DNA of 64,000 bases. It comes from Brachyhypopomus gauderio. Lineage: Eukaryota > Chordata > Actinopteri > Gymnotiformes > Hypopomidae. The stretch's first letter is position 1, and every line of letters begins with the position of its first letter. A model generated the notes under the pieces. That model was given only the letters and a program-made list of their open reading frames with translations, was not told where the DNA came from and made no database searches. The DNA is taken from positions 1,321,501 to 1,385,500 of the forward strand of contig NW_027506900.1 in assembly GCF_052324685.1 (NCBI RefSeq), given 5' to 3'. Positions 11,001-13,850 of the stretch are shown here, piece after piece. The translations under genes were made by a program, and so were the position numbers.

Positions 11001-13850
11001 TCATTTGTTTTTTTTTTAACCCTTCCAGGTGAAACTTCAAGAGGCCATTGAGTATGAAGACTTGCAGAATGAGACTAGGCCAAAAACTATTGCGTTGAAA
11101 TTGAAAAAATCTGACAGGTACATTTACGCTAGTTAGATCTAACCTGTACATTTGTAGATTTCTGTGTCTAGTAGAAGGGGATTACGTAAATGATGGCTAG
11201 TTCTAAAACCAAGTATATGATAAATGTGATAAAAATTTTCAAACCACGTAGTAAAAATGTTCATGGTCTTGTGAAGTTAAATGAAGCTACGTAGACTATG
11301 TAGACTACCGTTGAATTGATATATTTGTAACATAAAATAATGGATCAAATCTTGGACATGGACTCAAATAATATGGAACATTACATCATTACAACATAAA
11401 TATAATTACTCCCAGTTAGCTACAGCATCTTAACTACAGTCAAAAGAATGACAGTCTCTGAAAATGTCTTTCTGTTTGTTTCTTGTGCCACCAATATTGC
11501 AACAAAAGAAGAGAATTAGCTTACTCTTTCATATCTCTATTAATTTTTGTATGTTGTTTCTTGTTTCCTCTCCAACACTCTGGATCACATCCCGTTAAGG
11601 TATTCTCATGGGCCAGTTCCCCTGCAGTCTCATCACTACTCTACAAGTCAGGATATCATCAGCTCGGTCAGCTGCATTCAAGAGGAAATGAGCTGCTACA
11701 AACCCTGCCTTACTCAGGTTGTCTGCTACAAACCCTGCCTTACTCGGGTTGTCTGCTTACAAACCCTGCCTTACTCGGGTTGTCTGCTTACAAACCCTGC
11801 CTTACTCGGGTTGTCTGCTTACAAACCCTGCCTTACTCGGGTTGTCTGCTTTACAAACCCTGCCTTACTCGGGTTGTCTGCTTACAAACCCTGCCTTACT
11901 CGGGTTGTCTGCTTACAAACCCTGCCTTACTCGGGTGGTCTGCTACAAACCCTGCCTTACTCGGGTTGTCTGCTACAAACCCTGCCTTACTCGGGTTGTC
12001 TGCTACAAACCCTGCCTTACTCGGGTTGTCAAACCCTGCCTTACTCGGGTGTTGTTCCAGCTGTGTTAGTCTGCGTTTTGTTACTGTTTCGTTCTTACCT
12101 ACTCATGTTGTAAATCATCATGTTCTTTTTCTTGCTTTTTTTTTTTTTTATCAAAAACCTTTGTTTTTCAAACAAAGGCCAAATCAAGTCAACTATTCTC
12201 CTTAGATTTAGCTGAAGTTTGGCAATAAGGCTCACCAGCTCTCTGTCAAAGTCATAGTATGAACTGCTAAATGCAGCAAAACCCTGAGCGTTAAACGGAA
12301 TTGCTTGCTAAAGTTTTCTCTCTGACCAAGTGAAAAAAAAGTCATAGCGGTGGGTGTGACATGACCAGTGTGTTGAATGTCCTTGGTACTTGGGTTTGAG
12401 AAAGCCCATGTCATTCGTGGTTTGTAGGTGATGTCCAGCAGTGCAGCTAGTGCAGCCATTGCAGCTCTCTCTCCTGGAGGAGCCCTCATGCAGGCTGGAG
12501 CCCAGCAGACCATCAGTCGTAAGTTCCAGACGGTCTTTTATTGTATAAATCTCGTGAGGTTCTGTCTGTAATCCTTTTGATATTTCTGTAATGTGGCTGT
12601 AAATTGGTTTCACGGTACAGGCGCACATCCCTTTAGGGCCTTTATGATGATGTTCTTGGGGGGAAAAAAATCACCTTGAAACAATGAACTACATGATGTT
12701 GTTGCATGTTGAAGCCAATACATTAAGGCATGTAAAGTAACAATTATGAAACGTTTCTGCACATCTCTTGGATTTACAAAACACCAGGAACAATTTTTTC
12801 AGTACAGTTGACCTGTGTGCAGAACTTGTGCCTGCTGAAATTCAGAGTGAACTGAAGCACTTATACACAGCAGCAGGCGAGCTGCTACGGCACTTCTGGT
12901 CCTGTTTTCCTGTTAACACGCCCTTCTTGGAAGAGAAGGTACAGATTACAGTTCACAGCAATAATGTCACAGTGCTATAATATATCCATGCGGTCACATA
13001 TGCCCGCTAAAATGTAACTAGGAGTGTGTCTCCTAATGTTGCAATTATTTTGATTGCAACATTTTATTTCCTGCTTGAGCAACCATTATACTGTTTGTTT
13101 GGAAGTCTTGTGCACTGATGGCCACTAGAGGGCTGTTCTATTACCCTGCTCGGTTGGACCGTACACACAGTCCAGTAAGGTTATAGCACAGTCCATTTAA
13201 TCAATTCAACCATTACATTTAAGAGTGATTTTTTTTTTTTTTTTTTGCAATATTTGCCTCTCATCTGTTTAGGTGGTGAAAATGCAGTCCAATCTTGAGA
13301 GATTCCAGTCGACTAAGCTCCATCCGTTCCAAGAGAAGATTCAGCGGGAGTACTTAAGCACCAGTGTAAGGCCCCAGTTTTTAAACGACTGTATAGGGTA
13401 AAGAGAATCAGTAACGTGTTCAGGCGCATTTGTCGAACAAATCAGATCCTAAGTAATTCCTGAACCCATGCTAATCCCATGCCAAACTCAAGCCAGTCTG
13501 TCTATGTGCAATAAAGTTTCATCTAGTCTGTTAATGTTGCTGTAGTAAGGTTTATATGAAGGTCTTTGATATTTCCTGCTTGTGTTAATGTATCAAAAAA
13601 TGTTTTGTTTTAAATTATTGACAAGATTGCCAGTGGAAGAAATGAATAAGGAAGGCATTTGAAGTAGAGTTACTCTACAGAGGTGGTGTACCAGAAAATG
13701 ATGAAAAACAAAGTAGCCATGGGGTTTAATGGAACTAACTGTGTTCATGTTTGTTATTCACAGCTGATCAGCCATCTGGAAGAGATGATTCAGGCCGCCT
13801 ATAACAAGTTCCATGCCTGGCAAATGCGTCGCATGATGAAGAAATCCTGA
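5092..13850 (+). CDS. gtf2h1: General transcription factor IIH subunit 1 (TFIIH p62)
   Basis: p62 is a core TFIIH subunit that acts in RNA polymerase II initiation and nucleotide excision repair in the nucleus. Coding exons: 5092-5245, 5686-5878, 6018-6183, 6293-6386, 6679-6828, 7687-7766, 8095-8225, 8334-8421, 11029-11117, 11600-11717, 12428-12518, 12823-12938, 13273-13365 and 13764-13850. All phases close, giving 549 residues (human is about 548). The N-terminal PH-like domain starts [20 protein letters not shown] and runs over exons 1-2. The BSD domains show as EEFWANRL (exon 3) and [17 protein letters not shown] (exon 5). The conserved [16 protein letters not shown] is in exon 7, and the C-terminus [16 protein letters not shown] ends at a TGA. 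The start follows a splice acceptor two bases upstream. Intron 8 holds a TA microsatellite and two Tc1-like elements. The exon 10 donor sits in a 12-copy repeat (see 11694). The gene lies about 2.7 kb upstream of hps5 on the same strand. Confidence 0.96.
7420..7591. mobile_element. Foldback MITE in gtf2h1 intron 5
   Basis: A 172-bp element has near-perfect inverted arms of about 60 bp. The first 34 bases, beginning GTGCTGTCAATTCCAGGTGC, are exactly complementary to the right end, and pairing resumes through CCAGGATTTTGCTCA. It is flanked by TA on both sides (7418-7419 and 7592-7593), as for Tc1/mariner-type insertions. No open frame. Transcribed within the gtf2h1 intron, it could fold into a long hairpin. 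Confidence 0.75.
8462..8553. repeat. (TA)n microsatellite
   Basis: About 45 pure TA units in gtf2h1 intron 8, just after the exon 8 donor. Open frames across it (YIYIYI) are repeat artefacts. Confidence 0.95.
8636..9762 (+). mobile_element. Defective Tc1-like transposon (copy A)
   Basis: The ends ACCGGCCACTTTATTAGGTA (8636) and TACCTAATAAAGTGGCC (about 9743-9760) are inverted and belong to a common fish Tc1-like family. The interior keeps transposase remnants in order: [21 protein letters not shown] with [18 protein letters not shown] (paired-type DNA-binding region), then remnants of the DDE part with [13 protein letters not shown] in a third frame. Deletions and frameshifts remove function. 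A truncated relative lies at 41858. Confidence 0.88.
9768..10895 (+). mobile_element. Defective Tc1-like transposon (copy B, second family)
   Basis: It abuts copy A. The translation of broken frames shows [17 protein letters not shown] at the start, [21 protein letters not shown] (DDE region) and [18 protein letters not shown] near the end. It finishes at GTGAGCGAATACTT beside a GT microsatellite. Nonsense codons and internal deletions make it inactive. It sits in intron 8 of gtf2h1. Confidence 0.88.
10899..10972. repeat. (GT)n(GA)n microsatellite
   Basis: About 60 bp of GT units followed by GA units, directly at the right end of Tc1-like copy B, 56 bp before gtf2h1 exon 9. Confidence 0.93.
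11694..12051 (+). repeat. Minisatellite made of the gtf2h1 exon 10 end and its splice donor, 12 copies
   Basis: Twelve tandem units of 30-32 bp share the core AAACCCTGCCTTACTC followed by a splice-donor-like GGGTTGTC. The first unit is the true end of exon 10 (residues KPCLTQ, donor CAG|GTTGTC at 11717/11718). This matches the conserved boundary, because exon 11 resumes in phase with VMSSSAAS. The other eleven units carry CGG|GTTGTC, with variants GTGGTC in unit 8 and GTGTTG in unit 12. Spacing is 30 bp between units 1 and 2 and mostly 31 bp up to unit 8. All three forward frames stay open across the array. Confidence 0.93.

Follow-up and report, generated by a model that had tools for sequence, protein, structure and literature searches.

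In the gtf2h1 gene of Brachyhypopomus gauderio, the end of coding exon 10 and the first six bases of the following intron are repeated as a 12-copy minisatellite (11694..~12051, + strand, units of 30–32 bp), each unit of which includes a donor-like GT. The array lies in a window of 64,000 nucleotides, the whole stretch of DNA analysed here. It is probably a young minisatellite that grew out of the exon 10/intron 10 boundary, with the original donor (site 1) still the one mainly used and the array leaving with the intron. The locus is a naturally occurring case in which to ask how the spliceosome chooses among twelve near-identical donors, in a gene central to transcription and repair.

The identity of the gene and the position of the exon 10 end and its donor, as given in the preliminary description, are borne out by the match to p62 and by the exon map. 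Comparison of the three forward frames of positions 1–14996 with PDB sequences matched TFIIH subunit 1 in 14 stretches, some of them weak singly, and exon boundaries were set by hand at the GT and AG dinucleotides adjoining these stretches. The resulting coding region (5092..13850, + strand) comprises 14 exons and 549 codons plus stop with its frame intact, and Pfam recognises PH_TFIIH and BSD in its translation. Coding exon 10 (11600..11717, +, 118 nt), the last 24–25 nt of which are copy 1 of the repeat, is separated by intron 10 (11718..12427, +, 710 nt) from coding exon 11 (12428..12518, +), which was placed by the p62 match and the exon map. Joining 11717 to 12428 gives LTQ/VMSSS, which aligns without gaps with LTQ/VLSSS of human p62, and PDB matches to the exon 10/11 join are TFIIH subunit 1 in four of four distinct sequences. 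Because the p62 match runs ungapped across this join, the conserved exon 10 donor is site 1; the acceptor at 12428 named in the preliminary description rests on the same alignment. The hps5 gene lies downstream of gtf2h1 on the + strand (best Pfam HPS5 stretches ~17431 to 29523). Intron 8 of gtf2h1 harbours a Tc1/Sleeping Beauty-type transposase remnant (10253–10685, +), which must be broken since its matches fall in two frames.

Copy 1 spans the exon boundary, with the final 24–25 coding nucleotides of exon 10 on one side and six bases of the intron on the other, in agreement with the initial account of the unit as some twenty coding bases followed by the intron start. TRF called the array at 11693–12030 (period 31, 11.0 copies, 97% matches), and a search of both strands of the window for the 21-nt core CAAACCCTGCCTTACTCRGGT, with up to 2 mismatches allowed, returned 12 occurrences, all with 0 mismatches and all within the array, against a chance expectation of mean 0.00 over 100 dinucleotide shuffles. 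The 12-copy array originally placed at 11694..12051 is thus recovered by TRF and by the core search (12/12 exact). The core is invariant in all 12 copies apart from donor base −2: copy 1 has A there, and all 11 downstream copies have G. Such a near-identical core fits recent expansion, and the founder of this growth would have been a downstream copy already carrying the G.

Donor-to-donor spacings from copy 1 to copy 12 are 30, 31, 31, 31, 32, 31, 31, 30, 30, 30 and 24 nt, the variation in unit length consisting of one, two or three T in a TGCT..AC stretch and a last copy that is six bases short. Within the window, an 18-mer of the unit had no match outside the array, and a 15-mer with up to 3 mismatches had one, on the minus strand (48420); the 24-nt unit core had no exact match in the viral_contigs or genome_contigs collections, neither of which is meant for fish. 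The array was rejected as a structured RNA since the fold of exon 10 plus array (11600–12060) is unremarkable beside 100 shuffled sequences (z −0.64), 20 of which folded equally well or better, and Rfam returned no match at gathering scores anywhere in the window.

The array starts close to where coding exon 10 ends, and in each of its twelve units a GT occupies the position equivalent to the exon 10 donor. The last bases before these GTs (sites 1–12, + strand) are 11717, 11747, 11778, 11809, 11840, 11872, 11903, 11934, 11964, 11994, 12024 and 12048. As first described, CAG/GTTGTC is exclusive to site 1 (11718..11723), the exon 10 donor; the downstream copies have CGG in 11 of 11, followed on the intron side by GTTGTC in nine, by GTGGTC in site 8 (11935..11940) and by GTGTTG in site 12 (12049..12054), which forms the right edge of the array. 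Use of site 2 (CGG/GTTGTC, 11748..11753) would indeed add 30 nt, or 10 residues, in frame. Sites 3, 4 and 5 lie at offsets of 61, 92 and 123 nt (frames +1, +2 and 0), site 8 at +217 nt and site 12 at +331 nt (both in frame +1).

Besides sites 1 and 2, the frame is kept by sites 5 and 7, which would insert 41 and 62 residues. The other eight of the twelve (sites 3, 4, 6, 8, 9, 10, 11 and 12) lead to a premature stop early in exon 11: after joining to 12428, the +1 frame ends within a few codons (SGDVQQCS, then stop) and the +2 frame immediately (G, then stop). With three further exon junctions downstream of the stop, such messenger RNAs would be expected to undergo nonsense-mediated decay. The preliminary description had the frames of sites 3–5 right, and the + strand of the array itself is stop-free in all frames, but its claim that all three frames remain open does not extend past the acceptor, where the +1 and +2 frames stop in exon 11. 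Openness was also rejected as a signal in itself, since tandem arrays built from base-shuffled versions of the 31-mer were equally stop-free in three frames in 32.5% of 20,000 trials.

Donor strength was scored with a first matrix of general donor base frequencies, with a second and necessarily small matrix built from the other 12 donors of gtf2h1 (ranking by leave-one-out), and by pairing energy with the U1 5′ end. By the general matrix site 1 scores −3.31, compared to 0.06 to 6.89 for the other 12 gtf2h1 donors; nine array copies score −5.52, site 8 −1.61 and site 12 −1.95. By the in-gene matrix site 1 is at the bottom of 13 donors (−4.58), with the nine copies at −6.9, site 8 at −4.09 and site 12 at −2.02. 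In U1 pairing energy, three other gtf2h1 donors share the value of site 1 (−5.7) and the exon 7 donor is weaker (−4.3), the nine copies having −5.0, site 8 −6.8 and site 12 −6.1. The exceptional weakness of site 1, which has none of the four consensus bases at +3 to +6, is thus supported by the base matrices and not by U1 energy. Nine of the 11 downstream copies fall below site 1 in all three scores, and two lie above it, sites 8 and 12, neither of which keeps the frame. Outside the array, GTT/GTAAAT at 12110 (out of frame) scores 3.97 by the in-gene matrix and is not among the sites above −1 by the general matrix, and GCG/GTGGGT at 12350 (also out of frame) scores 2.70 by the general matrix, −10.5 by U1 and −3.08 by the in-gene matrix. 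The choice of site 1 is predicted by the protein match, not by simple scores alone.

We propose that tandem duplication of the exon 10/intron 10 boundary gave rise to the minisatellite, and that the change from A to G at −2 happened a single time, in one of the first downstream copies, and was propagated as the copies multiplied. The A would have been retained in copy 1 as it is both coding (glutamine) and part of a working donor. The spliceosome would settle mostly on site 1 and the array would be removed with intron 10; rare use of the other sites would yield mainly early-stop transcripts destined for degradation, although a minor isoform longer by 10 residues could come from site 2. This explanation is favoured because use of site 1 leaves the 549-codon frame intact and the p62 match ungapped, and because nine of the 11 copies are weaker and eight of the 12 sites break the frame. 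Against it, site 1 is the lowest donor by both matrices and is outscored by sites 8 and 12 and, in one or two of the scores, by those at 12110 and 12350. Our confidence in it overlaps with that in the two main alternatives considered below, because predominant use of site 1 would be compatible with either of them as a side effect. If site 1 alone is used, the array is a neat but ordinary repeat. The intron side of site 12, placed after exon 10's own CAG, would score 0.25 by the general matrix, near the weaker donors of gtf2h1; that copy 12 may hold the old intron edge is only a lead, as the edge is readable in more than one way.

The downstream copies might instead serve as alternative donors, giving rise either to longer forms of p62 (by 10, 41 or 62 residues) or to unstable transcripts that tune the level of gtf2h1. 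The twelve GT sites in register, the four of them in frame and the higher scores of sites 8 and 12 are in keeping with such a role, as is a human precedent, IFI6, in which the repeat units are 12 bp long and similar to the donor consensus. The IFI6 minisatellite with several splice donors was published in 1995 (cited in passages of PMC4526556, PMC2915984 and PMC3618361), and two downstream repeat units act as donors according to a passage of PMC4526556. In both genes the end of an exon carries a minisatellite with a donor within each unit, such that donors are consecutive; the gtf2h1 units differ in being 30–32 bp long, in being weaker than the first in nine of 11 copies, and in that the frame varies by unit length. 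By its anatomy the gtf2h1 array is thus a further splice-donor minisatellite of the IFI6 kind, in which use of the downstream donors is putative. However the nine weaker sites count against a generator of isoforms, the two stronger ones lead to early stops, and the inserts of 41 and 62 residues would be frame-mixed peptides inside a stretch that is gap-free compared to human p62. We consider this alternative unlikely, and a reading of the open frames as making isoforms likely is not supported, given early stops from eight of the 12 sites, openness that is common by chance and nine weaker copies out of 11. Among the literature matches listed for gtf2h1, zebrafish and isoforms, the titles and abstract openings contained nothing on this topic.

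The composition of intron 10 raises a second alternative. Its first 340 nt contain 11 GGG runs and no AG, whereas the first 108–340 nt of the other 12 gtf2h1 introns contain 0–2 GGG runs and 5–39 AG each. The G at −2 is responsible for both the GGG runs and the weaker donors of the copies, and the resulting cluster lies close downstream of a donor that both matrices, but not the U1 energy, place last among the 13. It is possible to imagine that the array helps site 1: the change at −2 would have made CAGG into CGGG, placing 11 G-runs some 31 nt apart downstream of a poor donor, and hnRNP F/H, a family with a general preference for G-runs, could bind the runs and promote site 1. Each run lies directly upstream of a decoy GT, which might be silenced in the process, and exon 10 splicing would then depend on the repeat.

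A comparable arrangement is found in TP53, where, according to PMC12062376, the weak exon 6 donor requires downstream G-runs and is inactivated when four or more of them are lost, and exonic G-runs are described as silencers. The likeness to TP53 intron 6 is that several GGG runs lie downstream of a weak donor; in gtf2h1, however, the runs belong to tandem copies of that very donor region and any enhancer activity is putative. No selection is needed to account for the 11 GGG runs, as a single mutation spread by copying would suffice; each run is of the shortest kind, GGG and then T, and the U1 energy of site 1 is ordinary. The TP53 intron 3 results in the same paper are also mixed, with 1.3% exon skipping when the intron was swapped for a G-run-free one and 2–69% for combined cluster deletions (PMC12062376). 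A helper role for the array is plausible by analogy with TP53, but speculative and rather unlikely. More doubtful again is the possibility that the array made itself needed, its expansion with one change from A to G having put a poor intron side on the exon 10 donor and supplied 11 G-run enhancers that silence the decoys and keep splicing on copy 1, with copy number setting the dose of the TFIIH subunit. The locus makes it possible to ask whether a splice site can become supported by the minisatellite that grew from it, and if copy number alters splicing, p62 dose could vary between individuals of the species.

Tandem duplication of AGGT segments has been linked to the birth of introns, in the Rogers model, in vertebrate ATP2A1 and in fission yeast with 24 bp AGGT repeats (passages of PMC4974935); two introns made of tandem repeats are described in fission yeast, one of which, by the authors' own statement, needs more study (passages of PMC3629103). 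The gtf2h1 array resembles these cases in having an exon-end AG/GT segment in tandem, with more than two copies also present in the fission yeast cases. It differs in that the exon boundary was pre-existing, the copies lie inside an established intron, and the AG has been lost (CGG) in 11 of 11 downstream copies. The first AG past the site 1 donor starts at 12059, and the copies are unable to act as AG acceptors because the array is without AG. The array is thus not an instance of AGGT intron gain, since all 11 copies have CGG/GT and no AG precedes 12059. Recursive splicing, or new introns between the copies, was rejected on the same absence of AG from site 1 until that position.

It is highly improbable that the array or its copy number arose by mis-assembly, since, although short near-identical tandem copies such as these are difficult to assemble and were seen in one assembly, the variants are ordered (T-runs of one, two or three, changes at sites 8 and 12, a shortened last copy), the flanks are clean gene and the variant pattern is not what would come from a simple error of duplication. 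The exact copy number is uncertain.

Other repeats and mobile element remnants are present in the window. The hps5 region contains a second Sleeping Beauty-type remnant (27018–27932, +), with HTH_SB and DDE_3 both under the Pfam cut-off, and a minisatellite with a period of 42 or 62 bp (22937–23325). An 18-bp minisatellite of ~25 copies (46091–46536) is accompanied by three minus-strand frames that are stop-free over 228–325 codons, none with a Pfam match. The longest stop-free stretch among those listed for the window (55803–57119, +, 438 codons) likewise had no Pfam match. A stretch at 25–462 (+) weakly matches group II/retron-type reverse transcriptases (E about 3e-6) and is perhaps a piece of a LINE-like element. 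A second minisatellite with a 31-bp period, at 40473–41598, comprises 36 copies of a unit that is unrelated to the gtf2h1 array.
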